Part shown: positions 1,492 through 39,952 of the stretch, piece after piece
Layout: the number at the start of each line of letters is the position of its first letter
How positions within the stretch are numbered: the first letter of the stretch is position 1
NCBI RefSeq assembly: GCF_004323185.1
Contig: NZ_NAPS01000003.1
Location: forward strand, 300,188-340,193
Length of the DNA stretch: 40,006 bases
Direction: 5' to 3'
From: Westiellopsis prolifica IICB1
GTDB taxonomy: Bacteria > Cyanobacteriota > Cyanobacteriia > Cyanobacteriales > Nostocaceae
Notes under the pieces: model-generated
What the model was told of the DNA's origin: nothing
Seen by the model: only the letters and a program-made list of their open reading frames with translations
The model's database searches: none
Position numbers and translations under genes: made by a program

Positions 1492-1492
1492 G

Positions 1493-9550: not shown

Positions 9551-12346
9551 ATGAAGTTAGATAGATTTTTTCAAAGCCTGCTGCTAACAGGTGTGGTTGT
9601 TGTTTTTATAAGCACTCCTGTTAAAGGTCAGGAAGCAACGGAGGATATTCAAGGTGAATCTTCTATCCAGACGTCAGGGAAATCTACACTGGTTAAAAAG
9701 ATTGCATCCACAGAAAAATCTTCGATATTAGCGTCTAATACCAGAAAAAACCGACTCCAAAAATCTCAGATTGCAAGTTCACAGCAAAGAGCAAAATCGG
9801 ATAAAACAACTAAAAATATTCCTCAACTTAGAGAAATCCAACTTCCCGCTACTAACGCCCAAAGGTTAGTACAGTCACCAACACCAACTAACCCTGCTAA
9901 CCCACAACAAAAAGATGGAGAGCAAGTTGTACCAATCACGGGGGTTAAGGCGAATTCCACACAGACAGGTGTGGAGGTAATTTTAGAAACACCCCTTGGG
10001 GAACAACTGCAAGTTACGAATCGCAGTACAGGTAATAGTTTCATTGCAGATGTATCCGGTGGACAATTGCGTTTACCTTCGGGTGAAGCATTTGTATTTC
10101 GTTCCGAAAAACCGCTTACGGGAATTACTGAAATTACAGTTACAAATATTGATGCCAATACCGTGCGAATCACGGTAGTAGGTGAAAACGCTTTACCAAA
10201 TGTTGAATTATTTGATGATAGTGTAGGGTTGGTTTTTGGTATAAATTCGGCTACAACAGCAACGCAGCCACCACAGCAACCTGAAACACCACAAGCCCAA
10301 GAACCACAAAATCAGACACCAGAAGAAGAACCAGCAGCACAACAGGATGAGCCGATAGAATTAGTAGTGACGGGAGAGCAAGATGAATATAGCGTAACGA
10401 ATACTACCACTGGAACAAAAACTGATACACCTTTGCGTGATATTCCCCAATCAATTCAGGTGGTTCCACAACAAGTGTTGCGTGATCAGCAAGTTACCCG
10501 CCTAGAAGATGCACTTAGAAATGTTACTGGTGTTAATCAGTCTTTTAACTTTGGTCCACTTAACTTTTTTACAATTCGTGGATTTGATGCAGCAGCGACG
10601 AATCTTCTCAGGGATGGGCTAGTTGATCCTCTAGCTGGAGAAGTGACTGAACTCTCCGGTGTTGAACAAGTTGAAGTTCTCAAAGGGCCTGCATCAGTGT
10701 TATTTGGTTTGGGTAATCCTGGAGGAGTCATCAATATAGTATCTAAACGTCCATTAAGCGATCGCTTTGAATCCATTGATGCAACGGTTGGCAGTTATAG
10801 TTACTATCGAGGTGCAATTGATTTATCGGGACCATTAAATGACTCGAAGACAGTCTTGTATCGTTTCAATACAGCCTACAGAAATTCAGGTAGTTTTATG
10901 GATTTCTATAATGGTGAAAACTTTAATATATCGCCTGTAGTCAGTGTAGCTATTGGCGATAAAACTAACCTAACTTTAGAGGGAGAATACATTACTACAA
11001 GAGATTCTTACGCATCTGGTGTACCTGTTGTGGGGAGTGTACGATCCAATCCCAATGGTGAAGTATCCCGTCATCGCAACTTTGGTGAACCTTCTGATGA
11101 ATTTGAACAAATAATTACAAGAGCTGGATACAAACTAGAACACAAATTTAGCGAGAATTGGTCGTTAAGCAATGCTTTTCGATTCAGCTATCGTGATTAC
11201 AGCGACCAACTGACGATTCCCTCAACCTTGGATGCAGATAATCGAACTTTTAATCGTAGATACCGAGAATTCGATCTGGAAAATGAGAATTATGCTTTGA
11301 CAACAAATTTAATTGGTAAATTCTCCACAGGTTCGATTCAGCATCAGCTTTTATTTGGAATTGATTTGAATCGTTTTGAAAACTTCACACCAAGATACAT
11401 CGAACGCCAAGGAGCATCAATTGATATCTTTGATCCTATATATGGTCAAGCGCCGGGTGATGAGATTACTTTTGAAAGTAGCGATCGCTATACTACAAAC
11501 TCCTTAGGAATTTATCTGCAAGACCAAATTGCATTGACGGACGGTTTGAAGGTGTTGGTAGGTGGGCGGTTTGATACTTTCGACCAGAAATATGAAGATT
11601 TGCTCAATGATACAGAAAGTAGTGGATCAGATAGTGCATTCAGTCCCCGCTTCGGGATTGTCTATCAACCCATCCCCGCTATTTCGCTATATGCAAGTTA
11701 TACACGTTCGTTTACTCCACCAAATGGTACATTCTTTTCTGGTGACTCTTCCTTCGAGCCAGAAGAAGGTACTCAGTACGAAGTTGGAGTAAAGGCTGAT
11801 TTGAATAATCGCCTTTCAGCAACACTAGCATTCTTTGATTTGAACCGTACTAATGTTTCAACAGAAGACCCCAATAATCCGGGTTTTTCCATCCAAGTAG
11901 GTGAGCAGAATAGCCGAGGTATTGAACTGAATCTTGCAGGCGAAATTTTGCCGGGATGGAATATTTATGCAGGCTATGCTTATACCGATGCACGGATCAC
12001 TGAAGATAATACCTATGATGTTGGCAACCGATTACCAAATACCGCGGAGCATTCTGCCAATTTATGGACAACCTATCAAATTCAAGCAGGAAATTTACAA
12101 GGTTTAGGGTTTGGTTTAGGTTTGTTTTTTGTAAGCGATCGCGCTGGAGATTTGGAAAATAGTTACGATGTACCTAGTTATGTTCGGACTGATGCAAGTA
12201 TTTTCTATAACCGAGATAGATTTAGAGTTGCACTCAACTTCAAAAATCTATTTGATGTAGATTATTTTGAAAGTGCGATTAATTCTAATCGTGTTTACTA
12301 CGGACAGCCATTTACAGTACAAGGAACTGTTTCTTGGCAGTTTTAA
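9551..12346 (+). CDS. TonB-dependent siderophore receptor with N-terminal AMIN domain
   Basis: The 931-aa outer-membrane protein has a signal peptide (residues 1-26, cut near VKG-QEA) and a Gln/Lys-rich linker. An AMIN-like domain lies at about 127-235 (ITGVKANSTQTGVEVILETP), followed by a Pro/Gln-rich stretch. A TonB-box-like segment (PIELVVTG near 270) precedes the plug (LRDIPQSIQVVPQQVL; the motif EQVEVLKGPASVLFGLGNPGG is typical of siderophore receptors). The rest is a 22-stranded-barrel-type region ending in a C-terminal Phe (TVSWQF). The AMIN-plus-receptor arrangement is common in cyanobacterial siderophore receptors. It lies divergent from the NRPS operon and upstream of substrate-binding-protein genes, so it probably imports the ferric form of a siderophore, perhaps the one made by the neighbouring NRPS. 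Substrate cannot be read from sequence. Confidence 0.95.
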   Translation: MKLDRFFQSLLLTGVVVVFISTPVKGQEATEDIQGESSIQTSGKSTLVKKIASTEKSSILASNTRKNRLQKSQIASSQQRAKSDKTTKNIPQLREIQLPATNAQRLVQSPTPTNPANPQQKDGEQVVPITGVKANSTQTGVEVILETPLGEQLQVTNRSTGNSFIADVSGGQLRLPSGEAFVFRSEKPLTGITEITVTNIDANTVRITVVGENALPNVELFDDSVGLVFGINSATTATQPPQQPETPQAQEPQNQTPEEEPAAQQDEPIELVVTGEQDEYSVTNTTTGTKTDTPLRDIPQSIQVVPQQVLRDQQVTRLEDALRNVTGVNQSFNFGPLNFFTIRGFDAAATNLLRDGLVDPLAGEVTELSGVEQVEVLKGPASVLFGLGNPGGVINIVSKRPLSDRFESIDATVGSYSYYRGAIDLSGPLNDSKTVLYRFNTAYRNSGSFMDFYNGENFNISPVVSVAIGDKTNLTLEGEYITTRDSYASGVPVVGSVRSNPNGEVSRHRNFGEPSDEFEQIITRAGYKLEHKFSENWSLSNAFRFSYRDYSDQLTIPSTLDADNRTFNRRYREFDLENENYALTTNLIGKFSTGSIQHQLLFGIDLNRFENFTPRYIERQGASIDIFDPIYGQAPGDEITFESSDRYTTNSLGIYLQDQIALTDGLKVLVGGRFDTFDQKYEDLLNDTESSGSDSAFSPRFGIVYQPIPAISLYASYTRSFTPPNGTFFSGDSSFEPEEGTQYEVGVKADLNNRLSATLAFFDLNRTNVSTEDPNNPGFSIQVGEQNSRGIELNLAGEILPGWNIYAGYAYTDARITEDNTYDVGNRLPNTAEHSANLWTTYQIQAGNLQGLGFGLGLFFVSDRAGDLENSYDVPSYVRTDASIFYNRDRFRVALNFKNLFDVDYFESAINSNRVYYGQPFTVQGTVSWQF

Positions 12347-12661: not shown

Positions 12662-12683
12662 CTAAACACATCCGATTTCTGTG

Positions 12684-13661
12684 ATGAAAAAAGTAAGTCG
12701 TATAATAATCATATTTATTCTTGCTAGTCTAACAACTTTTCTGTTTTCTGCTTGTAGTCAAAAGTTAACAGAGTATCGAAGTCATTTAGGTGACTTATCT
12801 CATCAGACTGACTGTCGAATAATTGAGCATTTATTAGGAAAAACTTGTGTTCCTCAAAATCCTCAGCGTATTATTAGCTTGCATTTAGCTACTTTGGGAA
12901 ACCTATTGAGTCTTGGGGTTAAACCAATAGGAAGTGCAACTGAATTTGACAAAACTGAATTTCCTAAATATCTTGAAAGTAAGATCGATGGAATCGAATG
13001 GGTTGGAAGTACCAATCAAGCTAATCTAGAAAAAATATTAAAACTCAAACCGGATTTAATTATCAATTTGAGTGATGATCAAAGTATTTATCCTCTACTC
13101 TCAAAAATAGCTCCAACTGTACAAACTGGTTGGGAAGGTCCCAATGAATGGAAGGAACATTTTAGTTTTGTTGCTAAAGTCTTAGGAAGAGAAGATACTT
13201 ATCAACAGGCGTGGGATCATTATAATCAGCGAATTAAAGAACTTAAAGCGGCTTTAGGTGATCGCTATCAAAATAAAAAATTTTCTTATGTCTATCTTGA
13301 AAATAGTAGTAACCCTATATTTATTAGTGAACTCAAAAATGTATTTGCTGGCTCAATACTAAATGATGCTGGTTTGCAACGTACAGAAGTACAAAATACT
13401 ATTAGTTCAAATGGCTATCTTTTTATTCCTGAAGAAGAATTATCGAAGATAGATGGTGATGTTGTATTTATAGGAATTGATGAGGACAGTGATATGAAAT
13501 CATTTAACAAAATCAAACAAAAGCCACTATGGAAGACACTTAAAGCTGTTCAAAGAAATAATGTATATGTTGTTAACAAATCAAATTGGAGAGAGTCAAA
13601 CTTAATTGCAGCTGATACAGTAATTGATGATTTATTCAAATACCTCGTCAATACTCCTTAA
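12684..13661 (+). CDS. Ferric-siderophore ABC transporter substrate-binding lipoprotein (FecB/FhuD-like)
   Basis: A 325-aa periplasmic binding protein of the iron-siderophore/B12 class. It has a lipoprotein signal (MKKVSRIIIIFILASL...FSAC, Cys24 lipidated). Next come the family opening KTCVPQNPQRIISL, the LGVKPIGSA segment and KPDLIINLSDD, then a long connecting helix and a C-terminal lobe ending LFKYLVNTP. It should receive a ferric siderophore from the TonB receptor upstream and deliver it to an inner-membrane FecCD-type permease, but no permease or ATPase gene for import is in the window. An in-frame GTG at 12681 precedes the ATG at 12684. Neither has a clear ribosome-binding site. The DUF1636 gene follows after 4 nt, so the two form an operon. 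Confidence 0.9.
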   Translation: MKKVSRIIIIFILASLTTFLFSACSQKLTEYRSHLGDLSHQTDCRIIEHLLGKTCVPQNPQRIISLHLATLGNLLSLGVKPIGSATEFDKTEFPKYLESKIDGIEWVGSTNQANLEKILKLKPDLIINLSDDQSIYPLLSKIAPTVQTGWEGPNEWKEHFSFVAKVLGREDTYQQAWDHYNQRIKELKAALGDRYQNKKFSYVYLENSSNPIFISELKNVFAGSILNDAGLQRTEVQNTISSNGYLFIPEEELSKIDGDVVFIGIDEDSDMKSFNKIKQKPLWKTLKAVQRNNVYVVNKSNWRESNLIAADTVIDDLFKYLVNTP

Positions 13662-21081: not shown

Positions 21082-22007
21082 ATGCCAGATATATTAGCAC
21101 TATTAGAATGCTTGCAGCGACATACGACAAGAACAACTCTAAGGCGTTGGAGTACGATCGTATACGCAATTTTAGGGATGAGTGGAAGAATTACAATGCT
21201 GGGTATATAACGTGGAACTTCTACGTATTCAAAAGCAAATTTTAGATTTGCTCAAAAAAATAAATAAGTTTTTACCATTGACTTATTTGGTTTTAGATGG
21301 TCATTTTGGCAACAATAGTGCTGTGGTGATGGCTCGGAGATTGGGTTTACAGCTAATTTGTAAAATACGTTGTGATTCAGCTTTGTACGTCCCTTATCAA
21401 AATCCTGACCCAAATGGTAAGAGTCGTCGTAAGTATGGAGATAGAATAAATTACTTAGATATACCAGAAAATTACCTGAAGAAAACAGAGACGATTGATA
21501 ACATTCAGACAAAATTTTATCAGGTTCAGCTTCTGCATAAAGAATTTTCTCAACCCTTAAATGTTGTAATTATTGTGCGGACAAATCTTGTAACTTCTAA
21601 TCGAAGCCATGCTGTGCTATTTTCAACAGATTTGAATTTAAGTTATGACAAGATTGTCGATTATTACAGCTTGAGATTTCACTCTCGTGTTTAATTTTCG
21701 TGACGCGAAACAATTTTGGGGACTAGAAGATTTTATGAATATTAGCAAAAATGCCGTGACAAATGCTGCTAATCTTGCTTTTTTTATGGTTAATGTTTCC
21801 CATATCTTGCTTTCCCACTTTCGCCAATTTAACCCCGATTTTAGCATTACAGACCTCAAGGCACTATTCCGGGGTTATCGGTATGTTGAGCAAACAATAA
21901 AATTACTTCCCCAAAAACCAGACCCTATTTTACTCGCGAATATTTTCCACACAGTTACCAATTTAGGGCGTATTCACCCTACCACTACTTGTTCTATTGG
22001 GTCATAA
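21082..22007 (+). pseudogene. Decayed IS4-like transposase
   Basis: Three pieces of one transposase can be read. The start is MPDILALLECLQRHTTRTTL, ending in a stop at MLGI. A middle part follows from about 21200 (LTYLVLDGHFGNNSAVVMARRLGLQLICKIR, containing the DG...FG.. segment near the second catalytic Asp). After a frame change near 21690 comes the end piece FNFRDAKQFWGLEDFMNISK with the catalytic Glu region. An internal deletion, a stop and a frameshift make it non-functional. Confidence 0.85.
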
Positions 22008-22046
22008 ATTTGGCGAAGGTCTTGATATGAAGAAATATAAATTAGC

Positions 22047-22125
22047 TGTAGGGTGCGTTGCGCTGCGCGACAACGCACCTTAAATTCTTGACCGTGCGTT
22101 AGCCTACGGCATAACGCACCCTACA
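22047..22125. repeat. Inverted repeat TGTAGGGTGCGTT...AACGCACCCTACA
   Basis: 13-nt perfect arms (22047-22059 and 22113-22125) enclose smaller GC-rich inverted segments (TGCGTTGCGCTGCGCGACAACGCA). It is a cyanobacterial dispersed palindromic repeat by appearance and has no coding content. Confidence 0.75.
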
Positions 22126-22183
22126 TTTAAATTTCTTAACATAGCTGTAAATATTAGCACCAACTTACTTATAGGACTCATAT

Positions 22184-22639
22184 TTGATTTCTGAAAAAAA
22201 CTCAGTACACTTTTATTCCCTGTTCCCTGTTCCCTGTTCCCTGTCTCTACGAGTAGTTCAGGAATCAAATCGGATTCCTATAGAAGAAATGTTTCGAGAT
22301 TTCAAAAAAGGTGGCTATAACTTAGAGGATACTAATGTCTCTGGCGAGCGGTTAATTACTCTAATTTTATTGATGGCTATCGCTTATACTTCCGCCACAA
22401 TTCATGGACAGCAAATTAAACACAAAGGTGTACAAAAGTACGTTGGTCGTCTTAAAGAAGCTGGTCGTATTGAAAGGCGTCATAGCAGCTTTTATATTGG
22501 ATTATATGGTGAAACTTGGGTTAATTTTATGGAGCAATGTAAAGATTTAGTCACCAATTTAATGCTATTAAATCGCAATAAGCGCCCCTTTTACCAACGA
22601 GGTCTTAGGGCGATGGAACTTATTCTAGCTCCATCCTAG
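22184..22639 (+). pseudogene. C-terminal fragment of a second IS4-like transposase
   Basis: From about 22264 the frame reads IPIEEMFRDFKKGGYNLEDT, the IEEMFRDFK motif bearing the catalytic Glu of IS4-type transposases. It continues through LITLILLMAIAYTSATIHGQ to the normal-looking C-terminus. The N-terminal two thirds, with both catalytic Asp residues, are missing. The first 25 codons of the open frame derive from a TTCCCTG tandem repeat and are not transposase. Confidence 0.85.
22216..22243 (+). repeat. Heptanucleotide tandem repeat (TTCCCTG x4)
   Basis: Four perfect head-to-tail copies of TTCCCTG, just in front of the transposase fragment. Short tandem repeats of this kind are common in Nostocales spacers. 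Confidence 0.9.
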
Positions 22640-25129: not shown

Positions 25130-26014
25130 CTATATGCTGCCTTCTAGCAGCTCCAATACAGTCCCATCTGGATCAGTGAAGCAAACAATAGTGGCATTTG
25201 TTCCGGGTAATTCTTGAGGCTCAGACAAGAAAGTTACGCCCTGTGTTTTTAAATTTTCGTATACCTGATAAATATTGTTGGTGAGCAGGCATATACGAGC
25301 TACCCCAGTATGGTTGAGATTAGAATAAGGTTTTCCTTCTGTTTTGGGATCAAGGAACTCCACAAGATCAATTCGAGTTGCTTTTGGAGTATTTTCTAGC
25401 ACTAAATGAACTCCCCGAAGTTTGGCGCTTGGTAATCCAAACGCTTTTGCCATAGCTGTGCTGCTCATCCCTTCTCTAAAATCAGTTACAACTCTAAAGC
25501 CAAGCTTTTCGTAGAACTCTAATGATTTGTCAAGATTAGTACAATTTATGTTGCAGTGAAAAATTCCTTCAATCATTGTCAATACATTTCCTAGTTCAGT
25601 AACTTGTTGATTTAACTCGCTCAAAGCAGCAGCTCCAGCTTCAGCAACTTCTTGGTCTTGGCTACCAGAACCACCACTGACCCCAATAGCTCCCACAACG
25701 ACACCGTTTTGCTTCAGGGGAATACCCCCAGCAAAAATCATGACTTTACCGTTGTTAGATACATGAATTCCAAAAAATTCTCCACCACATTGACTATGTT
25801 CTGCTAATTCTTTGGTGGAAATATTGAAAGCACGTGCAGTGTAAGCCTTCTTGATGGCAATGTCAACACTGCCAATCCAGGCTTCATCCATACGCACATG
25901 AGTAATTAAATTACCTCCAGCATCTACCACTGCTATATTCATGGGCTGACCAATTTCAATCGCCTTGTTTTCTGCGGCAACAATTAGCTTTTGTGCATCT
26001 TTGAGTGTAAGCAT
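25130..26014 (-). CDS. GlcG/HbpS-like domain fused to a VOC (glyoxalase-fold) domain
   Basis: A 294-aa soluble protein of two parts. Residues 1-140 are a GlcG/HbpS (DUF336) domain: LTLKDAQKLIVAAENKAIE, NIAVVDAGGNLITHVRMDEA, IFAGGIPLKQNGVVVGAIGVSGG are signature phrases. These proteins bind haem or cobalamin or accompany catabolic operons. Residues about 147-292 are a vicinal-oxygen-chelate domain (FHCNINCTNLDKSLEFYEKL; LGFRVV; CFTDPDGTVLELLE), with possible metal ligands in the first His and the final Glu. GlcG and VOC proteins are normally separate, so the fusion is unusual. It is the last gene of a three-gene minus-strand group with an SDR and a DUF4432 protein. Substrate unknown. Confidence 0.88.
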   Translation of the reverse strand: MLTLKDAQKLIVAAENKAIEIGQPMNIAVVDAGGNLITHVRMDEAWIGSVDIAIKKAYTARAFNISTKELAEHSQCGGEFFGIHVSNNGKVMIFAGGIPLKQNGVVVGAIGVSGGSGSQDQEVAEAGAAALSELNQQVTELGNVLTMIEGIFHCNINCTNLDKSLEFYEKLGFRVVTDFREGMSSTAMAKAFGLPSAKLRGVHLVLENTPKATRIDLVEFLDPKTEGKPYSNLNHTGVARICLLTNNIYQVYENLKTQGVTFLSEPQELPGTNATIVCFTDPDGTVLELLEGSI

Positions 26015-26114: not shown

Positions 26115-26888
26115 CTACCAAGGTTCTTCAAGGACAGCTGTCATACCGCCATCTACAAACAGTTGCGTACCAGTAATGAAAGAAGCCTCATCGCTAGCGA
26201 GGAAAGCGGCTGCATAACCAATATCCTCAGGAGTACCGAGCCGTTTCATGACTTGCCTTTTTTCGACTAAATGTCTTTGCTCAACAGGGTTGTCATAGCT
26301 ACTGAAGAGGTTCTCAATCAGAGGCGTCCACACCCAACCAGGGGCGATCGCATTTACCCGAATGGTTGGACCATAGTCAATAGCCATATTACGTGTTAAA
26401 GCAGTAATTCCACCCTTAGAAGCTGTATAAGGTGCTACTCCATTTACTGTAGCGTGAGAGTGTACAGAAGACATATTAATAATTACGCCTTTCCCCACAG
26501 CTTGCATATGAGGAATAGTATATTTAGAGCAAAGAAATGCACCTTTGAGGTCAATAGCTAAACAACGATCCCATTCTGCACTGGTTGTTTCTAATACTGA
26601 CTTATAAGTTCCAACACCTGCATTATTGACTAAAATATCTACTTGACCATAAACATTAACCGCTGTTTGCACCATTGCTTTAACTTCATCTTCATTTGAA
26701 ATATCGCAAGAGATAAAGATAGCTTCACCACCTTTGTGGCGAATCTCCTCAGCAGTTTGCTCACCTGTTTTAACATCTCTAGCAACAACAACAAGTTTAG
26801 CTCCTTGTTGAGCAAAAATTGTCGAAATTCCCCAGCCAATTCCCTTTGACCCACCAGTCACAATCGCAACTCTATCTTTTAGCTTCAT
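26115..26888 (-). CDS. SDR family oxidoreductase (3-ketoacyl-reductase-like)
   Basis: A 257-aa classical short-chain dehydrogenase with the cofactor motif TGGSKGIG (11-18), the NNAG motif, the active-site YTASK (Tyr near 152), and the closing phrase TGTQLFVDGG. It oxidises or reduces a hydroxyl/carbonyl pair using NAD(P)(H). ATG 26888 is preferred over the upstream GTG at 26900, because GTGAGG acts as its ribosome-binding site 7 nt before ATG and the fold begins right there (MKLKDRVAIVTGG). It is the middle gene of the DUF4432-SDR-GlcG/VOC group, with about 100 nt on each side. Specificity is not readable. Confidence 0.92.
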   Translation of the reverse strand: MKLKDRVAIVTGGSKGIGWGISTIFAQQGAKLVVVARDVKTGEQTAEEIRHKGGEAIFISCDISNEDEVKAMVQTAVNVYGQVDILVNNAGVGTYKSVLETTSAEWDRCLAIDLKGAFLCSKYTIPHMQAVGKGVIINMSSVHSHATVNGVAPYTASKGGITALTRNMAIDYGPTIRVNAIAPGWVWTPLIENLFSSYDNPVEQRHLVEKRQVMKRLGTPEDIGYAAAFLASDEASFITGTQLFVDGGMTAVLEEPW

Positions 26889-26990
26889 GATTAGCCTCAC
26901 TAAATTAATAAAACTAGCTCTTCTATTTACAGAACAAAAAAGTTGAGTACTTCCGAAACTCTTGAGAATAATTTTTGTGTTTATGTATGA

Positions 26991-28058
26991 TCAATGCTCT
27001 ACAAGTCCATTAAGAGTAATACGATTTACACCTTCTCCTTGGTAAGCAACAGCAACTAATTCCGTTTCAATGACTTCACCAGGTTTCATGATTAATGCTG
27101 TACCATTTTTAACAGCATTATTGATTCCAGAAGGAGGAAAACTAGTGAATGGCTCAAGACCACAATTATATGTACGCCCGTACCAAGGGTAATTATCGTG
27201 ACCGCCATAGACCTGCCACATCCAAAGATATTTAAACAACTCTTTGTCCCAAGCCATTCCAAAACCTACATTTAACCTTTGATTGGTTATACCGTACCAA
27301 CCTTCAGTTAATTCTTTAAAAAAGACTATATCAACTGACTTAGTTTCCCTCGGTAGTACACGAGTAACATCTTGCATGACTCCAGTACGTCGGTTCTTAA
27401 CCTTGGGAAAATCATAATTCCCTCCTGGTTCCCACAAACCATTTTGATGATAAGCCATTACTTCAACTTTGGAAGCCGGCGTCTGAACTATGCAACTATC
27501 ATCAAGAAAAGGTTCTCCAATAGCAGGGTGATGACCCCACATTATGGCGAATTCACCCATTGAATCGTTAAAAACACGTTCCTGAATAAATAATGCAGCA
27601 ATACCGCGTTTGAGTGACATCTTGCGTTCAAGTCTTAATGGTGAACGATAAAGATGTACACGTGTGTGTAAGGTAACTTGCTCTTGACTATCTTCGGTAA
27701 TAGTAGCTTCAAAGGGTAAAAGTGCTACTTCTCCATGTAAACCTTGAGTAGCTCCCATGTACGGTTCCGCAGCCCATCCTGCTGATGGTAATATCTCTTG
27801 CCAACCACCATAATAGTCATCGTGAAAAGCTCCTTCGGGCAATGCACAAGTAGCAACAAATGGGCGTCGCATGGGAATTGGTGATTGCCATAAAAAATCT
27901 AAATCATAAGGTTTATAGGTGAACTCAAATATGTCTGCACCTTTGTCCAATAGTATTCCGACTCTTAATAACTCGTTTGCTAGGTATGCAATTCGCATAC
28001 CCTTGTAAGTGTAATCTAAACTAATGCGACAACCCTGTTTTCTTCCATACGTGTACAT
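26991..28058 (-). CDS. DUF4432 family aldose-1-epimerase-like protein
   Basis: A 355-aa protein of the galactose-mutarotase-like fold. The segments GILLDKGADIFEFTYKPYDLDFLW, FHDDYYGGWQEILPSAG, WGHHPAIGEPFLD and WMWQVYGGHDNYPWYGRTYN match the DUF4432 family, which has putative catalytic His and Glu residues in the WGHHPAIGEP segment. These proteins are thought to bind or epimerise sugars or related polyols, and some lie in catabolic operons. It is the first gene of a minus-strand group (SDR 102 nt downstream) and is divergent from the first hydrolase gene, so the 640-nt gap between them should hold promoters of both. Confidence 0.85.
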   Translation of the reverse strand: MYTYGRKQGCRISLDYTYKGMRIAYLANELLRVGILLDKGADIFEFTYKPYDLDFLWQSPIPMRRPFVATCALPEGAFHDDYYGGWQEILPSAGWAAEPYMGATQGLHGEVALLPFEATITEDSQEQVTLHTRVHLYRSPLRLERKMSLKRGIAALFIQERVFNDSMGEFAIMWGHHPAIGEPFLDDSCIVQTPASKVEVMAYHQNGLWEPGGNYDFPKVKNRRTGVMQDVTRVLPRETKSVDIVFFKELTEGWYGITNQRLNVGFGMAWDKELFKYLWMWQVYGGHDNYPWYGRTYNCGLEPFTSFPPSGINNAVKNGTALIMKPGEVIETELVAVAYQGEGVNRITLNGLVEH

Positions 28059-28700: not shown

Positions 28701-29594
28701 ATGGCAACTGATTTAACGACTTTCGACAAGATATTCACCCATGAAATGGCTGATGTCAATGGTGTACGTCTTCATTACGTAATAGGCGGTCAAGGAGATC
28801 CAATTGTTTTACTTAGTGGTTGGCCTAATACCTGGTATCAGTGGCGACGAGTTATGCCAGCATTAGCTGAACGCTACACAGTAATCGCAGTTGATATGCG
28901 GGGTCTCGGTGACTCTTCTAAACCAACCAGTGGCTATCGGAAAAAGAACGTAGCTGAAGATGTTTATCAGTTGGTAAGGAAACTTGGATTCCAACGTATT
29001 TTCCTAGTTGGAATAGATATGGGAGTAGCAGTCACCTATGCTTATGCAGCTGACCATCGTGAGGATGTGCGTCGGTTAGTACAAATGGAAGGGACTGTTC
29101 CAGGATTTGGTTTTGAACAACTCATGACATTCTCACCAGAAACTTCACGCGAAGGAGGGATCTGGCACATTCCATTTCACATGGTTCCTGACCTTTCAGA
29201 AGGGCTGATTGCAGGTAGAGAAAAGATGTATCTGACTTATTTCTTTACACGCTTTGCCTACAATACAACAGCGGTCAGCGAGGCTGAAATTGACGAGTAT
29301 GTTCGTACCTTTGCTTCTCCGGGTGGTATACGTGGCACTTGCGAGTATTACCGAACAATCTTTGAAGATGTAGAAGACAACAAGGAAAGTGCCAAGGTAA
29401 AACTTCAAATGCCCGTGTTAGCACTGGGAGGCAAATATGGTTTAGGAAAACGTCCTTGGAATTCTATGCAGGCGGTTGCTGAAGATGTCCGTGGTGATGT
29501 ACATGAATATTGTGGACACTATATGCCTGAAGAGCGTCCAGAATATGTTATTGAGCAGTTGCTAAACTTCTTTGGTGAGGAGTCACACTCCTAA
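28701..29594 (+). CDS. Epoxide-hydrolase-like alpha/beta hydrolase, copy 1 (altered oxyanion motif)
   Basis: A 297-aa alpha/beta-hydrolase close to copy 2 at 32926-32030. The nucleophile is Asp106 (LVGIDMGV), the catalytic His is near 273 (YCGHYMPEERPE), and the cap domain carries tyrosines (YFFTRFAYN). In epoxide hydrolases and haloalkane dehalogenases the oxyanion motif is HGxP. Here the His is replaced by Ser39 (LLSGWPNTW), and the nucleophile is followed by Met instead of the usual Trp. These changes suggest altered activity or substrate rather than a standard epoxide hydrolase. It is divergent from the DUF4432 operon and convergent with the EthD-SnoaL gene. Confidence 0.88.
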   Translation: MATDLTTFDKIFTHEMADVNGVRLHYVIGGQGDPIVLLSGWPNTWYQWRRVMPALAERYTVIAVDMRGLGDSSKPTSGYRKKNVAEDVYQLVRKLGFQRIFLVGIDMGVAVTYAYAADHREDVRRLVQMEGTVPGFGFEQLMTFSPETSREGGIWHIPFHMVPDLSEGLIAGREKMYLTYFFTRFAYNTTAVSEAEIDEYVRTFASPGGIRGTCEYYRTIFEDVEDNKESAKVKLQMPVLALGGKYGLGKRPWNSMQAVAEDVRGDVHEYCGHYMPEERPEYVIEQLLNFFGEESHS

Positions 29595-29828: not shown

Positions 29829-31400
29829 TCATATCTTTATGAGTGACCATTTAGATAACACATCAGCCCATTTGGGGGCGAATCCTGTTGCTACTCGTTT
29901 TTTTCCTTCATCGTGTTCGTTAAAGTAATTCTTTAATACCCCTGGTGGAGTCAGTCTCCGTCCTTGGCTTATGGTTAATACAGATGATGTATTAGGTACA
30001 GGAATAGTTTGATCAGATACAGGATTCGCATCCATGAAAATCCGCAACTCTGAGAATTTGTTGCCCTCTAGTCGAAAAATATCACAGCAAGGTAGAGTTA
30101 CTATAGAACCATCCTTACGCCAATAAATCACATCCATTTCAACGAACACTACGTTACCAACTTCCCACATCATCTTGATTTCGTGGTAAAGTGCAGAAAC
30201 CTGGCTGAAAAAGGCATCTACAGATTGCTTGATGGCAGCTTTAGTGAAACATGGTGCATAGTTGCCAAACTGATAGACTGGTGTATCTGTAAAGAACTCA
30301 ATAAACCCCTCGGAATCAAATGCTTCGCCTCTAGCAAATAAGCGTGTCACAATCTCTGAGGCTGTTCCTGGCAGTCTTTCTAACGTATCGCTTTTCTCAA
30401 CTGTAGTTTGACTGACAACTGTATCATCTAAAACTGATTGTTCAGACTTAATATCATGCTTGCCGTTGGAGTGAGAAAATATACCATTCATAAGAGAAAC
30501 GATGTCCTTCTTAAGTTGATTGATTGCACCGATATTTGTAATTAGTTCCGCAACTGTGGAACTTCGTTGACCGGCTAAAGTCATCTGATTGTTGTAAACA
30601 AAGGTGTATGCTGTTCTTTCTGGAAAAGTACTAATTTGTTTAATGTACTGTGGCTGGGATTGAACTGTTGAGATGTACTCATCAGAAACAAAGAAGTTAG
30701 CCATATCAAGAGAATCAGAAAAAGCAATTTCAAAAGCAGCTTGATACTGATTTCTTGGAGGTTCAACATGAATAACTCCTGGTGCATCTGGTCTAGAATT
30801 GTCTACTTCTTCAAATAAATGTAGTCGAAATTTGAGAACAAAATTACTTTTGACAATTGCAGGAGCAAAACTGTCTTTCATATATTTGCGAAAGGCTTCT
30901 CTACTCACGCCATCTGCTTTCTTGACCATGACGTGAAATTTCCGAATCCCTAAATCTCCGTTGGGGTAGGCCGTAGAAATGCCATCCACATAAGTTTGAG
31001 AATTACCAAGACTAGTGTTATAGCCAATTGCCTTGCTGAAAATGTTGTATTCGTCATCCATTAAAATGCCAGAGGCATTAAACCAGGTTTGACGGTCGTT
31101 TTCAGTAGCAAAGGTTAATTCGGCAATCCCATCGAATTGTTCTGAATCTGGACAGCTGTAGTCTATGCCATCTAAAGTAGGCCAAATACTGCCTTGATTA
31201 TGAGCTACGTGGAATTGCCAGTATTGATATTGACCTGGTAGTCTAGCGCAGACTGGACCATGTACATTCCGCCAGTAGTCGTCAAACATCTCTAGGGTGA
31301 TGCTTTTTCTTTTCCAGAGAAGAACGTAGAAGACTACTTTGCCATTGCGATCGCGTTCTGCGTAGTTAGCTTTTACTATTTCTTGATTGAGAGTTTTCAT
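29829..31400 (-). CDS. EthD-domain protein (two EthD units) fused to a SnoaL-like domain
   Basis: A 523-aa soluble protein. Residues about 20-150 (VVFYVLLWKRKSITLEMFDD, YWRNVHGPVCARLPGQYQYW) and 155-290 (KFHVMVKKADGVSREAFRKYM) are two dimeric alpha/beta-barrel EthD-like units. A linker (about 295-345) leads to a SnoaL/NTF2-like domain (about 350-470: QVSALYHEIKMMWEVGNVVF, RKDGSIVTLPCCDIFRLEG) and a basic C-terminal tail. EthD-like enzymes include fungal aromatic-polyketide dehydratases/decarboxylases, and SnoaL proteins include polyketide cyclases, so a ring-modifying step is possible but inferred. The same two parts are separate neighbouring genes at 34292-35672. Its start is 9 nt after the cupin stop, so the two are one operon. 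Confidence 0.85.
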   Translation of the reverse strand: MKTLNQEIVKANYAERDRNGKVVFYVLLWKRKSITLEMFDDYWRNVHGPVCARLPGQYQYWQFHVAHNQGSIWPTLDGIDYSCPDSEQFDGIAELTFATENDRQTWFNASGILMDDEYNIFSKAIGYNTSLGNSQTYVDGISTAYPNGDLGIRKFHVMVKKADGVSREAFRKYMKDSFAPAIVKSNFVLKFRLHLFEEVDNSRPDAPGVIHVEPPRNQYQAAFEIAFSDSLDMANFFVSDEYISTVQSQPQYIKQISTFPERTAYTFVYNNQMTLAGQRSSTVAELITNIGAINQLKKDIVSLMNGIFSHSNGKHDIKSEQSVLDDTVVSQTTVEKSDTLERLPGTASEIVTRLFARGEAFDSEGFIEFFTDTPVYQFGNYAPCFTKAAIKQSVDAFFSQVSALYHEIKMMWEVGNVVFVEMDVIYWRKDGSIVTLPCCDIFRLEGNKFSELRIFMDANPVSDQTIPVPNTSSVLTISQGRRLTPPGVLKNYFNEHDEGKKRVATGFAPKWADVLSKWSLIKI

Positions 31401-31409
31401 AGGTAATAG

Positions 31410-31883
31410 CTATAGTATTTCTACTCCATATTTGGGACCAACTTCAAGCATTTTTTTGATTTGCTCTTCAGGTGTAACAGGTACAGGTGTATCCTGGTCT
31501 TTCACTAGATAACCCACTTCCTCAAAAAACTTTTCCAGTCCCGCAGGAACAGTTGTTGTCAAAGTTTTTGCGGGTGCTGTGCTTATATTTTGAAAGCAAT
31601 GACGTATACCTTTGGGAACATGGACAAAGTTGCCGGCAGATAAGACTATTTTTTCCTCTCCAACCTCGAAAAGCAACTCTCCTTCTAGGATGTAGAACGT
31701 TTCGTGTTCCCGATGATGAATGTGAGGTGGAGACCCGTTTTGAGGTGGAATGAAAAACTCAAATGTTGAATACGCACCCCCAGTATCTTCGCCTACTGCT
31801 TTAAAGGTATATGTATCGCCCACAACGGAGTAAGAACGACCTTTGCCTTTTGGCGTTATCACTGGATGATCATTGTGTGTCAA
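31410..31883 (-). CDS. Single-domain cupin
   Basis: A 157-aa cupin with metal-ligand motif His54-x-His56...Glu61 (PPHIHHREHETFYILEGE) and a second-motif His95 (VPKGIRHCF), so it should bind Fe, Mn or another divalent metal. It may be a dioxygenase, an isomerase or a binding protein. Translation starts at TTG (31881-31883). This is decided by a perfect AGGAG seven nt upstream; no ATG is suitably placed. It is the gene before the EthD-SnoaL fusion (9-nt gap). A 27-nt palindrome lies about 47 nt upstream of its start. Confidence 0.88.
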   Translation of the reverse strand: MTHNDHPVITPKGKGRSYSVVGDTYTFKAVGEDTGGAYSTFEFFIPPQNGSPPHIHHREHETFYILEGELLFEVGEEKIVLSAGNFVHVPKGIRHCFQNISTAPAKTLTTTVPAGLEKFFEEVGYLVKDQDTPVPVTPEEQIKKMLEVGPKYGVEIL

Positions 31884-31929
31884 TGTAGTTCTCCTGATAT
31901 CTGCAAAGATTTGAAAATATAAATTGCAA

Positions 31930-31956
31930 TTTAATACTACATTTTGTAGTATTAAA
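31930..31956. promoter_or_regulatory. 27-nt perfect palindrome upstream of the cupin gene, candidate operator
   Basis: TTTAATACTACA (31930-31941) and TGTAGTATTAAA (31945-31956) are perfect 12-nt inverted arms around TTT. It is too AT-rich to make a good terminator stem and sits in the promoter position of the cupin/EthD-SnoaL pair, so a regulator binding site is more likely. Confidence 0.55.
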
Positions 31957-32029
31957 TATGTAGATAAAATATAAACCGCTGCTGTGGGCTAAATTGTTAA
32001 TGCTTTTTACAACGATTTCAAAAGCAATC

Positions 32030-32926
32030 TTAGGATTTGTAATCTTCACCAAAAAACTGGAGCATCTGTTCAATCAGGTACTCTGGACGCTCTTGGGGAA
32101 TGAAATGTCCGCAGCCTTCAATAACAGTACCGCGAACGTCTTCAGCCACTGCTTGCATCGCCTTAATTGGGCGATCGCCTAAACCGTGAGAAGCTCCCAG
32201 TACCAGCACCGGCATTTTGAGTTTTGTCTTAGCGTTTTCTTTGTTTTGTCGTACTGACTCATGGATAGCGCGATAAAGTCCAAGAGAACCACGTACTGCA
32301 CCAGGAGCAGAATACCAACGAACATATTCGTCAATTTCAGCTTCAGATATTCCAGAGGGGTTATACGAATACTTATTGAAGAAGTAGGAAATAAATATCC
32401 GTTCTCTTCCTGCAATTAGTGCTTCTGGAAGGTCAGGTACTGCATTAAAGTTAAAATGCCAAATTCCGCCACCTAAGCGCGAAGTTTCCGATGAATATTC
32501 GGCTAGATCTTCCCAACCAAAACCAGGAAGTGTGGCATCAAGGCTTACAATTCTACGTACATCTTCTGGATAAGCACAAGCATATGCATAGTTAACTGGA
32601 GAACCCCAATCGGAGCCAGCCAAGAAAACACGGTCGAAACCAAGATGACGAACTAATTGGTAAATATCTTCAGCTTCGGTACGGCTATCATAGCCAACCG
32701 CTGGCTTTGAAGAGTCACCAAAGCCCCGCAAGTCCACTGCAACCACAGTATAGTGTTCAGCAAGAGCTGGCATAACTTTATGCCACTGATACCAAGTATG
32801 GGGCCAACCATGTAGTAAGATTACTGGATCACCTTGACCGCCAATTACATAGTGCAGACGTATGCCGTTGACAAAAGCATACTGATGAGTGAATTTTGTT
32901 TCGATATCTTTTAAGACGGTTGTCAT
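32030..32926 (-). CDS. Epoxide-hydrolase-like alpha/beta hydrolase, copy 2 (canonical motifs)
   Basis: A 298-aa alpha/beta-hydrolase paralogous to copy 1 over its full length. It has the canonical oxyanion motif HGWP (His39, LLHGWPHTWYQW), nucleophile Asp106 followed by Trp (AGSDWGS), cap-domain tyrosines (YFFNKYSYN) and the catalytic His near 273 (GCGHFIPQERPE). These are the residues of soluble epoxide hydrolases, which open epoxides to diols through an ester on the Asp. It lies between an SDR (124 nt upstream) and a cupin (146 nt downstream), all on the minus strand. Confidence 0.92.
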   Translation of the reverse strand: MTTVLKDIETKFTHQYAFVNGIRLHYVIGGQGDPVILLHGWPHTWYQWHKVMPALAEHYTVVAVDLRGFGDSSKPAVGYDSRTEAEDIYQLVRHLGFDRVFLAGSDWGSPVNYAYACAYPEDVRRIVSLDATLPGFGWEDLAEYSSETSRLGGGIWHFNFNAVPDLPEALIAGRERIFISYFFNKYSYNPSGISEAEIDEYVRWYSAPGAVRGSLGLYRAIHESVRQNKENAKTKLKMPVLVLGASHGLGDRPIKAMQAVAEDVRGTVIEGCGHFIPQERPEYLIEQMLQFFGEDYKS

Positions 32927-33050
32927 ACTTATATCTTTGTGTAGAAATGCATTGATTTTTTGTTAGCTACGCTAGATCTGGGCGCTTGTACCCTGCTCCA
33001 AATAATTGGTCACTTTTAAGTTTGTAATTTGTTGAATGTAGGTGAGCAAA

Positions 33051-33854
33051 TTAGTTAATTGCTCCTACACCTCCACCGTCTACCCGAATGTTTGCACCAT
33101 TAATGTAATCTGCGAGTGGACTTGCTAAATATGCAATTATATTTGCTACTTCTTCAGGGCGGCCAAGACGGCTGCTGGGGTTAGGCCAATCCTCTTGCAC
33201 CAAATGCTTTTCAATCTCTGTCCATTCGCTACCCCATCCTTTCGCTAAGGCAATCTGATGGAAAATACGCTTGGCTCCTTCTGTTGCAATCAGACCAGGG
33301 CTTACTGTGTTGACTGTAATACCTGTTTGTGCTAATTCTTTTGCTAAACTTACAGTCATATTCAAAGTTGCGGCTTTAGTGGCTTGATAATCAGGCCGAG
33401 CAGCGAAGGGTTGAATCGCTAATCCACTAGCAATTTGAATGATACGTCCCCAACCAAGCTGCTTCATATGAGGTACGAGAAGTTGAATCATTCGCACCAT
33501 AGAAATTACATTAGCATTATAAATCTCAGCCCATCCTTTTGGATTACTGTCCATCCAGGTACGGTCTTCATATATGCCGGCATTATTAACTAAAATGTCT
33601 ATACTCCCAACCAATGAAAGTACTTTAGTAGCTACTTGACGCGCACCTTCATCAGTTGAAATATCTCCGACAGCAACAAATGCTTTTCCACCATCTGCAC
33701 TAATCTTGTGAGCCATCCGATTTGCCTGCTCTTCCTTTCGTCCGTGTATGATAACGATCGCACCTTCTTGTGCTAGAGCTTTCGCGATGGCTGCACCAAT
33801 ACCACTGGTACTACCAGTGATTATAGCTCGCTTATCACGTAACTGTAAATCCAT
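33051..33854 (-). CDS. SDR family oxidoreductase
   Basis: A 267-aa short-chain dehydrogenase with TGSTSGIG (13-20), NNAG (VNNAGIYEDRTW), the active-site YQATK (Tyr near 155), and the closing INGANIRVDGG. The start ATG has TGAGGT 7 nt upstream. It is the first gene of the minus-strand set SDR-hydrolase-cupin-EthD/SnoaL and is divergent from the separate SnoaL and EthD genes. The cofactor-binding loop (HGRKEEQ after the second strand) has Arg and Lys, hinting at NADPH. It differs clearly from the SDR at 26888-26115, so it is not a recent duplicate. Substrate unknown. Confidence 0.92.
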   Translation of the reverse strand: MDLQLRDKRAIITGSTSGIGAAIAKALAQEGAIVIIHGRKEEQANRMAHKISADGGKAFVAVGDISTDEGARQVATKVLSLVGSIDILVNNAGIYEDRTWMDSNPKGWAEIYNANVISMVRMIQLLVPHMKQLGWGRIIQIASGLAIQPFAARPDYQATKAATLNMTVSLAKELAQTGITVNTVSPGLIATEGAKRIFHQIALAKGWGSEWTEIEKHLVQEDWPNPSSRLGRPEEVANIIAYLASPLADYINGANIRVDGGGVGAIN

Positions 33855-34291
33855 GAATTTACCTCATGGTTATATTTTTTGTAGTCTCTTTAAATTTGAT
33901 TCATACAGTTGAATCAAAACCAGTCTTAGCTTGACAAGTAGTTTGATAGATCGAGGTTTTTACCCAAAGTTGTGGTAAACCCCATGACTAAGAAGATAGT
34001 ATCAGTTTATCTATACTAAAAAGCTTTAACCAGGCAATTTCATTATTTTAAGAACAAATTTATTTTTGACCCAAAAAAATCAAATAATCTATATCAACTT
34101 TTTGAATATTGTAATTTAACCTAAAATAGCATTTTAGGTTAGAGTTGGCGATCGCATTTGTGGAAAAACTTGTACAAACGGGGAAGTTTTAATTTCTGAG
34201 TCAATTTCATAAGTTGATTTATAAAATTACGAACTTTACTGGTTAAAAATTTTGATAACAGACAAACTAGACTTATCTTTTTTATTTGATT
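33855..34291. promoter_or_regulatory. Divergent control region with a 10-bp-arm palindrome
   Basis: 437 nt between the leftward SDR set and the rightward SnoaL/EthD pair. AACCTAAAAT (34118-34127) and ATTTTAGGTT (34131-34140) are perfect arms around AGC, a candidate operator central to both transcripts. A HIP1-type site follows at about 34149. No gene is seen. Confidence 0.5.
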
Positions 34292-34702
34292 ATGAGATAC
34301 TCAATGTCAAATTTAGTAGCAACATCAGCTAAAACAGAAGTTATTAAGCGGTTATTTGAGGTATTTGAGTCGGGACCTGATGCTCCAATACAAGCTTCAG
34401 ACAAGTATGTTACATATCTAACTGAAGATGCACACTTTCGTTTAGGTAACTTAGAGATTATAGTTGGACATAAAGCCATCAGAGACTCTTTGATAGATTT
34501 TTATCAACAAGTAAAGAGTATATATCACGACATCAAGCAAAAGTGGGAAATTGGAGATGTAGTATTCTTAGATATGGAAGTTACTTATTACCGTCAAGAT
34601 GGCACTAATGTTATACTTCCCGTAGTGGATATCTTTCGATTTAAAGGTGAGTTAATCCAACAACTGCAAATTTTTATGGATATCAATCCGCTATTTGAGT
34701 AA
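34292..34702 (+). CDS. SnoaL/NTF2-like domain protein
   Basis: A 136-aa cone-fold protein with the segments VKSIYHDIKQKWEIGDVVFL and RQDGTNVILPVVDIFRFKGE. It is clearly homologous to the SnoaL part of the EthD-SnoaL fusion on the other side of the control region (shared IYH/LYH-IK...WE-G-VVF, YWRKDGS/YYRQDGT, DIFR, IFMD-NP). SnoaL-like proteins include cyclases, isomerases and hydratases. It is followed after 61 nt by the EthD gene in the same orientation. The ATG at 34292 is preferred; a second at 34304 is possible and a TTG at 34286 less so. No strong ribosome-binding site distinguishes them. Confidence 0.85.
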   Translation: MRYSMSNLVATSAKTEVIKRLFEVFESGPDAPIQASDKYVTYLTEDAHFRLGNLEIIVGHKAIRDSLIDFYQQVKSIYHDIKQKWEIGDVVFLDMEVTYYRQDGTNVILPVVDIFRFKGELIQQLQIFMDINPLFE

Positions 34703-34763
34703 GCGCAAGATGTAGCAATTTTTTGTACCAATAACAATTTTCACATTATACAGGAGAGGAACT

Positions 34764-35672
34764 ATGACAAAAGTTGATTACTCAACACGTGATCAAGACG
34801 TGAAAATAGTATTATACGTACTTATAAAGAAGAAAAAGGAAATTGATTTAGATACATTCTATAGTTACTGGAAAAATATTCATGGTCCAGTAAGTGCGCG
34901 ATTACCAGGTCAGTTCCAATATTGGCAATATCACCTTCCTTATAGTAGGGATAATATTTGGCCAAGTGTTGATGGAATAGAATACGAAATTCCTGAAGAA
35001 GATGAATTTGATGGAATAGCAGAATTGACATTTTTATCAGAAGAGCATTGCCAAATCTGGATTAATTCTGCTAATATTCTAGACTCTGATCAGCAAAATT
35101 TTGTAAGTAAAGCTGTTATATATCTAACTAATAATGGTAATTCTAAAACTTATATTGATACTATAGAAAATGGTACTCCCATTGGTAATTTAGATGTCAT
35201 AAAGTTCCATGTCATGCTCAGAAAAGCAGATGCAATCACTGTAAATGATTTTCGCAATTACATGGTTGATAAATTTACTAAATCTTTTATACAAAGCGAT
35301 TTAGTTCTTAAATTTAAACTGCATCTTCTTGAGGAACACGACAATTCCCTTCCACCAGCTCCTGGGGTTTCTCATTACGAACCACTAGAAAAGCAATATC
35401 AAGCAGCCTTTGAAATTGCCTTTAAAAGTTGGATAGACATGGAAAATTTCTTTGATTCACAGGCTTATACTGCTGTAGTACAAGACCAAAAAAACTATAT
35501 AAAGCAGTTTACTACTTTTCGAGAACAAGGTACTTACACTTTTGTGTACGATGGTAAACTGACTTTAGCTGGACAACGGACTTCCACTGTAGCAGAACTT
35601 ATCACCAATCTTGGTGCAACCAATCAAACAGAGGATAACATACTTAATCTTATGCTTGGCAATGTTGCTTAG
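34764..35672 (+). CDS. EthD-domain protein (two EthD units)
   Basis: A 302-aa protein matching the N-terminal 300 residues of the EthD-SnoaL fusion throughout (YWKNIHGPVSARLPGQFQYW; DEFDGIAELTFLSEE; VIKFHVMLRKADAITVNDFR; LTLAGQRTSTVAELITNLGA). It ends where the linker of the fused protein begins. It has two EthD-like units (about 15-150 and 155-285). A strong ribosome-binding site (AGGAGAGG) precedes the ATG. With the SnoaL gene upstream it reproduces the fused gene in split form and reversed order, so the two parts probably work together. Confidence 0.87.
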   Translation: MTKVDYSTRDQDVKIVLYVLIKKKKEIDLDTFYSYWKNIHGPVSARLPGQFQYWQYHLPYSRDNIWPSVDGIEYEIPEEDEFDGIAELTFLSEEHCQIWINSANILDSDQQNFVSKAVIYLTNNGNSKTYIDTIENGTPIGNLDVIKFHVMLRKADAITVNDFRNYMVDKFTKSFIQSDLVLKFKLHLLEEHDNSLPPAPGVSHYEPLEKQYQAAFEIAFKSWIDMENFFDSQAYTAVVQDQKNYIKQFTTFREQGTYTFVYDGKLTLAGQRTSTVAELITNLGATNQTEDNILNLMLGNVA

Positions 35673-39140: not shown

Positions 39141-39331
39141 ATTGGGATTTATTTTATCCCTTAGATATTACTCTCTGCATAAAAAAATCTTTCCTTGCCT
39201 TGGAAGCTACTTTTAATCTGGGCATTGGTGACAAGTTAAGGAAAAGGAGAAATTGTCAAGGGTGGTATTTGTAGTGGTCAAAAACATGGGAAACTCAGTC
39301 TAGATAAGTAATTGAGCGATTGTTAGCAGCC

Positions 39332-39952
39332 ATGACGACCAGCCGAAAAACTAATCGAGACCACGCGAAAAAGAAACAACGACCAATGGTGGAAGATGAA
39401 GTAATTGCGGAGCAACTGGAAAGATTACTGACACCAGCCATTACAAATCAAGAAAATTACTACCGTAAATTAGGACTCAGAGAACGGATACTGAATTTAC
39501 CGTTAATGATGGCGGCGGTGTTAACTTTGCTGTGGAGAGATGTAGCAGGAGTCAGAGAACTGACAAGAATGTTAGCCAGAGACGGTTTTCTGTGGTGTAA
39601 TCCTACAAAAGTTAGTCAACAAGCTGTATCACAGAGATTTTTGACATTTCCATCGGAATTATTTGAAAAAGTATTTAAAGATTTATTGCCTAATTTGAGA
39701 GCAGCTTGGCACAGTAGAAATAAACGTCCACTGCCAGAAAGTATTCAGTTTACCTTATTAAAATTTGAGAAGATTTGGATAGTAGACGGCTCAACATTGG
39801 AGGCATTATTTAAGAAATTACAAAGCTTAGAGTCGGCTCAAAGAGGGCAATTAGCAGGAAAAATGAGTACAGTCATTGATTTAATGACCAGATTACCTGT
39901 AGAAATTTGGTGGGAGCATCCCAATTTTGCAAAAATAGAGAGAGAAAAATAA
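39332..39952 (+). pseudogene. IS4-like transposase, truncated
   Basis: The frame from ATG 39332 (MTTSRKTNRDHAKKKQRP; a TTG at 39320 is also in frame) covers the N-terminal half of an IS4-type transposase. It includes the first catalytic Asp (KIWIVDGSTLEALFKKL) and the VIDLMTRLPVEIWW segment. It then ends in EHPNFAKIEREK-stop, before the region with the second Asp and the catalytic Glu, which normally follows for another 200 or so residues. The stop lies exactly where a short hairpin begins, suggesting disruption by a small insertion. The continuation may lie beyond the window. Confidence 0.8.

Follow-up and report, generated by a model that had tools for sequence, protein, structure and literature searches.

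The DNA considered here, referred to as the window, is a stretch of 40,006 nucleotides from the cyanobacterium Westiellopsis prolifica IICB1 (contig NZ_NAPS01000003.1, positions 300,188 to 340,193), and the subject is a locus in which EthD and SnoaL domains occur both fused in one gene and split over two neighbouring genes. The three genes had been predicted from the DNA letters alone; their coordinates, strands and lengths proved exact, and Pfam domains confirmed their contents as EthD-EthD-SnoaL, SnoaL and EthD. The genes and features concerned are the following, with lengths of proteins in amino acids (aa).

29829..31400, minus strand: gene of the 523-aa fused protein, with tandem EthD (aa ~8-308), a linker and a SnoaL/NTF2-like domain with C-terminal extension (aa ~339-523), from Pfam and predicted structure
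30477..31400, minus strand: EthD-EthD half of the fused gene, from Pfam, profile alignment and predicted structure
29832..30386, minus strand: SnoaL half of the fused gene, from Pfam, profile alignment and predicted structure
31410..31883, minus strand: Cupin_2 protein, immediately upstream of the fused gene (Pfam)
32030..32926, minus strand: alpha/beta hydrolase (Abhydrolase_1) of the minus-strand group (Pfam)
33051..33854, minus strand: SDR oxidoreductase that opens the minus-strand group (Pfam)
33855..34285, no strand: divergent intergenic region between SDR (minus) and SnoaL (plus)
34286..34702, plus strand: split SnoaL_2 protein, 138 aa
34764..35672, plus strand: split tandem-EthD protein, 302 aa

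The minus-strand group runs in the order SDR, alpha/beta hydrolase, cupin and EthD-EthD-SnoaL, with gaps of 124, 146 and 9 base pairs (bp). The true start of the SnoaL gene may be a nearby ATG, a few codons past the TTG at 34286.

In the fused gene, EthD (PF07110) was found in two stretches (E 3.5e-13, 50.9 bits against a gathering cut-off of 22) and SnoaL_2 (PF12680) at aa 351-451 (E 7.6e-10, 39.7 bits against a cut-off of 27). The split SnoaL gene carries SnoaL_2 (E 1.8e-8, 35.4 bits) and the split EthD gene has EthD, likewise in two stretches (E 3.3e-14, 54.2 bits), both by the same cut-offs. With the NCBIfam model TIGR02118 (EthD family reductase), the split EthD gene passed the curated cut-off of 30.5 with 35.8 bits, while the fused gene fell short of it with 21.2 bits. 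Identity between fused and split copies is 54% for the EthD pair (299 aa) and 38% for SnoaL (123 aa); hence, they are paralogous part for part as had been proposed, though not recent duplicates, since the copies belong to different clades (see below). At E <= 0.001, the only EthD matches in the whole 7.3-Mb genome are the fused and the split EthD genes, and their presence at one locus is therefore not a matter of chance. SnoaL_2 has nine matches at this threshold in the same genome, eight of them above the cut-off.

The relation between the two parts was studied with two profiles, one of 41 rows for the EthD pair (E 1e-20) and one of 29 rows for this SnoaL family (E 1e-10), which were searched against the same 386 cyanobacterial genomes (G numbers denote genomes, G000 being that of the window; L033-L108 are fetched relative loci). 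The EthD pair was found in 14 genomes and SnoaL in 13, with both in 11, the EthD pair only in three (G092, G270, G380), SnoaL only in two (G004, G145) and neither in 370. This gives a Fisher p of 4.5e-17, for profiles that were built partly from these genomes. Among seven EthD-pair genomes taken as unseen, five had SnoaL (two SnoaL-only, 370 neither; p 6.9e-9); the EthD sequence of G380 is that of L082, which was included in the model, so the clean unseen count is 5/6, the p value belongs to the seven-genome count, and close relatives of some unseen genomes were part of the profiles. In nine of the 11 genomes carrying both, a single open frame holds the EthD pair and SnoaL, and in the remaining ones, the genes are 54 bp (G384, L093) or ~11 kb (G320) apart. 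Co-occurrence across cyanobacteria, which the original prediction had proposed to look for, is thus present outside this locus, and it is supported that the EthD pair and SnoaL belong to one system.

Relatives of the locus combine the parts in different ways. A long EthD-pair match was present in 64 fetched loci, eight of which were dropped for an identical EthD segment, leaving 56 with the window included; SnoaL was counted only on a BLAST match to this family at 1e-5. SnoaL is fused in 28 of these loci, separate in five and not in view in 23, many of them short-flanked. The corresponding numbers for the 30 loci flanked on either side by more than 7 kb (window excluded) are 13, 5 and 12. The EthD-EthD-SnoaL protein of 523 aa is found in the window, L034 and L097, and the order EthD-EthD-SnoaL-SnoaL in L048, L049 and L095, while proteins of ~1000-1340 aa built from these parts occur in 16 of the 56 loci. 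The usual long order is CMD-EthD-EthD-VOC-SRPBCC-SnoaL-SnoaL (L042, L044, L047, L057-L059, L068, L069, L073 and others), confirmed in full by Pfam for L042 only and read in the others from BLAST searches that used parts of L042 and of the window as queries. A CMD or SRPBCC match is missing from some of the long proteins; the longest of all, L080, has no CMD but matches VOC twice. Examples of these multi-barrel proteins, with up to seven small barrel domains, are given below.

L042:7422-10727
L047:8695-12048
L073: open reading frame of 1189 aa
L080: open reading frame of 1340 aa

A SnoaL pair also stands behind a Nif11-type leader (L043, 12444-13931; L057, L070, L098), sometimes with an ABM domain behind it, and the EthD pair is also fused to a protein family called X188 here, which lies behind it in proteins of ~515 aa. 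L045 (G052) has a free-standing SnoaL of 185 aa, with 78% identity to the fused half, alongside relatives of the same DUF4432 and SDR proteins.

In the EthD tree, the split gene of the window forms a clade with L039 and L096 (100/100) and the fused half one with L097 and L035 (99/99). The SnoaL tree places the split gene with L039 and L096 (100/99), in the same inner order as in the EthD tree, and the fused half with L097 (99/82); its deeper joins are uncertain, with long-branch effects possible. From these matching clades, each pair looks inherited as a unit. Both kinds are carried by G314, as L096 (split-type) and L097 (fused-type), and the fused and split pairs look to have diverged before these genomes did. 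A recent splitting of the fused gene into separate genes was rejected, as the copies lie in different, well supported small clades. Two EthD pairs that are nearest relatives within one cluster were seen clearly in L055, L070 and L076 and less strongly in L047 and L069, which suggests repeated copying inside the locus.

The idea that all three genes are arranged around one divergent promoter holds in part. A gap of 431 bp (33855-34285) does separate two groups that are transcribed apart, but it lies between the SnoaL gene and the SDR gene; we infer the use of its promoter by the fused gene, because the latter is the fourth of the minus-strand group. Consensus promoter hits within 33700-34400 showed no excess (two, against a mean of 3.0 in shuffles), and one terminator-like hairpin was found at 33851-33869 (shuffle mean 0.2). 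Blocks of the intergenic DNA are similar in the window and in L039 and L096, and both relatives retain the divergent layout of SnoaL against SDR and hydrolase.

Fold comparison of the predicted structure showed the EthD pair as a tandem α/β barrel, with two ferredoxin-like halves in one chain. Its fold neighbours include the anthrone-oxidase-like protein 5f9p, chalcone isomerase (Eubacterium ramulus) and 4-methylmuconolactone methylisomerase, with 4-8% identity in the alignments to the former two; a PDB sequence search with the EthD-pair profile gave no significant match, the single hit being an antibody at E 0.91. In the first model of the 523-aa protein, 162 of the 523 residues, mostly of the SnoaL half, had pLDDT <50, and this half was then predicted alone. 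It showed the NTF2 cone fold, shared with limonene-1,2-epoxide hydrolase (LEH) and ketosteroid isomerase, and its best matches in both sequence and fold are LEHs. The catalytic triad of LEH is Asp-Arg-Asp. Three alignments of the SnoaL half show a gap where the RxD motif has its Arg, and all 29 SnoaL rows carry Glu or Asp, never Arg, two positions ahead of the Asp/Glu; membership of the LEH family was ruled out on this missing catalytic Arg. The long form of SnoaL further differs in an extra C-terminal segment of ~60 aa. Candidate functional residues are the invariant His47 in the numbering of the EthD profile and His68 or Asp102 in that of the SnoaL profile. The role as a cyclase/dehydratase pair that was first suggested would be compatible with these predicted folds.

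Several families recur beside the EthD pair. In the 30 well-flanked loci, these are AGE-like (24), GlgX (23), X188/Ct (23), CMD (21), DJ-1 (21), SnoaL (18), STAS (15) and VOC (13). X188 is a strongly conserved protein of ~188 aa (66-81% identity to the first of 16 rows), found in 25 of the 386 genomes, including 13 of the 14 with the EthD pair. No Pfam hit was obtained on the scanned member, and across 16 members, three families were each hit in one, with a best E of 0.035 and CGDB among the three at E 0.14; a PDB search with the X188 profile gave no match, and comparison of the X188 and SnoaL profiles gave a probability of 0.1. Two examples are listed.

L048:9174-9743: X188
G000:C12:367094-367654: X188 in the genome of the window

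On the contig of the window, a group of CMD, X188, DJ-1, GlgX and AGE genes with no EthD of its own occupies about 366.5-373.4 kb of G000:C12, ~31 kb beyond the split EthD gene; a 574-aa multicopper oxidase is located 1.6 kb from this group. A large multicopper oxidase with RTX/FG-GAP repeats had matches in 22 of 77 sequence sets (window and L033-L108), which include the query's own locus, duplicates and partial matches. At E 1e-60, it was found in seven of the 386 genomes, six of them with the EthD pair; the genome of the window was searched and has no such long multicopper oxidase. Domains of polyketide synthases (PKS) or nonribosomal peptide synthetases (NRPS) were absent by Pfam from the 12 families found in at least six of 21 loci, rarer neighbours having been partly scanned. 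Beside the STAS genes, matches to SpoIIE/PP2C-type phosphatases lie near the cluster in L092, L104, L066, L067, L036 and L082; L092 and L104 also have STAS genes and an ATP-binding anti-sigma-like gene there, which together make up a regulator set of the partner-switch type. Its carriers span a wide range of cyanobacteria, Nostoc and Trichodesmium among them as well as a family whose genomes measure 2.3-2.8 Mb. It is apparently patchily distributed in cyanobacteria and undescribed: in agreement with the original prediction, a literature search found no paper that names both domains and no description of the EthD and SnoaL pair or of its cyanobacterial cluster, in a coverage that left out most subscription papers and preprints.

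It was concluded that one cyanobacterial cluster combines several barrel modules in various ways, the EthD pair and SnoaL being two of them. We give about an even chance to the reading that the fused gene and the two split genes are two versions of one EthD-SnoaL functional unit on one small-molecule pathway. The two EthD halves would form a fold of the dimeric-alpha/beta-barrel type in one chain, beside the NTF2-fold barrel of SnoaL, and both barrels would be cofactor-free acid/base enzymes for water elimination, isomerisation, or ring closure or opening, handling the same or consecutive intermediates. Redox and hydrolytic steps would be supplied by the SDRs, the cupin and the alpha/beta hydrolase, and fusion would keep the intermediate local. 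The unit would be one module of a cluster in which CMD, X188, DJ-1/PfpI, AGE-like, GlgX and STAS proteins are the most frequent parts, often together with a multicopper oxidase. Through their fusion and co-inheritance, two vaguely annotated domains become a pair open to testing, and proteins of up to seven small-molecule-binding barrels with no PKS among the recurrent neighbours are unusual.

Some described proteins offer parallels. Hsh3 of Sphingobium, an EthD-type 7beta-hydroxysteroid dehydratase and the nearest functional parallel found, is described as removing the 7beta-hydroxy group of a bile salt, and its predicted barrel as having nearly mirror-symmetrical helices, while the dehydratases Hsh2 (the 7alpha enzyme according to the discussion) and BaiE are given as NTF2-like (PMC12175502). 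Hsh3 thus resembles the EthD pair in its EthD domain and predicted barrel, as described there; unlike in the unit of the window, Hsh3 and Hsh2/BaiE are separate proteins according to this account, and the substrate is a steroid. The fungal EthD proteins MdpH and ClaH, reported as decarboxylases, and FwA belong to polyketide pigment pathways (PMC10890192). These share the EthD domain with the window, whereas the backbone in the fungal pathways is made by a PKS, of which there is none among the 12 most recurrent families of window-type loci. By analogy with Hsh3, the NTF2-like dehydratases and the fungal EthD proteins, both barrels would perform elimination or isomerisation on one pathway. Among the neighbours, SDR, DUF4432, VOC, DJ-1, AGE-like and GlgX hint at compounds like sugars or dicarbonyls and the multicopper oxidase at phenolics, but these indications agree too poorly for a substrate to be named; knowledge of the substrate would explain genes annotated as 'hypothetical', 'AtaL-like' or 'carboxymuconolactone decarboxylase family'. 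An extended scheme is also conceivable, though unlikely: a PKS-free pathway, in which the barrel enzymes (CMD, tandem EthD, VOC, SRPBCC, SnoaL), in proteins of up to ~1340 aa, would turn a precursor derived from glycogen or sugar, in view of the GlgX, AGE, DUF4432 and SDR neighbours, into a phenol- or quinone-type compound, to be polymerised outside the cell by an exported multicopper oxidase, under STAS/SpoIIE partner-switch control; the window would hold a compact version of its EthD-SnoaL step.

Several observations count against a dedicated EthD-SnoaL unit. Twelve of the 30 well-flanked EthD-pair loci lack this SnoaL family, one of them being a Roseomonas plasmid (L106) with an EthD-pair relative (34% over query residues 2-305) and, 3.7 kb from it and in the same orientation, a remote SnoaL_2 gene; three of the 14 EthD-pair genomes have no match to this SnoaL, and two genomes have SnoaL without the EthD pair. 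The loci were mostly gathered with the fused protein as query, and fusions are thus over-represented in their counts, a bias from which the 386-genome test is free. The closest relative of the fused EthD half (L035, 83-84%) stands alone, and the 523-aa query matches nothing else in its genome, G020. A common pathway follows from co-inheritance, but contact or a shared substrate does not, and the same folds also include oxygenases, isomerases and binding proteins. Of the original proposal that the two parts act together, the single system is borne out by co-occurrence, fusions and the split genes inherited as a unit; their exclusivity is not, given the 12 loci without SnoaL and the fusion of the EthD pair to X188. 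It is possible, if doubtful, that the real core of the EthD pair is CMD, X188, DJ-1 and AGE, with SnoaL optional or lineage-specific and recruited by gene fusion. AGE-like, GlgX, X188, CMD and DJ-1 are all more constant neighbours than SnoaL (21 to 24 loci against 18), X188 is present in 13 of the 14 EthD-pair genomes against 11 for SnoaL, and X188, too, forms fusions with the EthD pair. In the window genome, however, SnoaL is either fused to the EthD pair or next to it, while ~31 kb lie between the split EthD gene and the CMD-X188-DJ-1-GlgX-AGE genes, and SnoaL recurs in the distant small-genome family (L093).

The EthD, SnoaL, cupin, VOC, SDR and alpha/beta hydrolase proteins might instead degrade a scavenged or stress-generated compound, in which case VOC or cupin proteins may cleave rings; we consider such a catabolic or detoxification module a tentative option of some weight. 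The CMD, DJ-1 and VOC families include enzymes of aromatic catabolism and dicarbonyl detoxification, 4-methylmuconolactone methylisomerase is among the fold neighbours of the EthD pair, and on two alphaproteobacterial plasmids, SnoaL (37% identity) lies next to a cupin (34-37%) with VOC, SDRs and an FAH-family hydrolase, one of these clusters having a TRAP transporter as well. On the other hand, the 12 families present in at least six of 21 loci include no transporter, although porin-like genes lie near some loci, and many loci have the large multicopper oxidase with RTX/FG-GAP repeats, which is suited to extracellular chemistry. That the SnoaL half is an active LEH-type enzyme, and that the locus serves to detoxify epoxides, with the alpha/beta hydrolase taking part, is very unlikely: LEHs are the best sequence and fold matches of this half, and HGWP and GSDWG in the hydrolase at 32030-32926 resemble epoxide-hydrolase motifs, but the RxD Arg falls on a gap and is replaced as described above. 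An accidental meeting of generic small-barrel domains with no functional link is hardly credible; both folds are common, as the nine SnoaL_2 matches in the genome illustrate, yet co-occurrence, fusion in different orders and co-inheritance disfavour it. The explanations overlap, and their likelihoods do not sum to one.

Further genes of the window adjoin the EthD-SnoaL locus.

28701..29594, plus strand: paralogous alpha/beta hydrolase, 62% identical to that at 32030-32926
26991..28058, minus strand: DUF4432 protein, which recurs near relatives; the L104 relative is annotated as aldose 1-epimerase
26115..26900, minus strand: second SDR oxidoreductase, which recurs near relatives
25130..26014, minus strand: HbpS-like and glyoxalase (VOC) fusion, with shorter relatives near some clusters

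From this identity, the hydrolase gene was duplicated too; one of the two hydrolases has HGWP/GSDWG where the other has SGWP/GIDMG. Stretches at 1-8209, 9551-12346 and 12681-13661 were judged by eye to hold NRPS-type genes, ~17 kb before the cluster, together with a TonB-dependent receptor and a substrate-binding protein resembling those of metal uptake. Transposase-like fragments, also identified by eye, flank the region on both sides (21182-22639 and 39320-39952).

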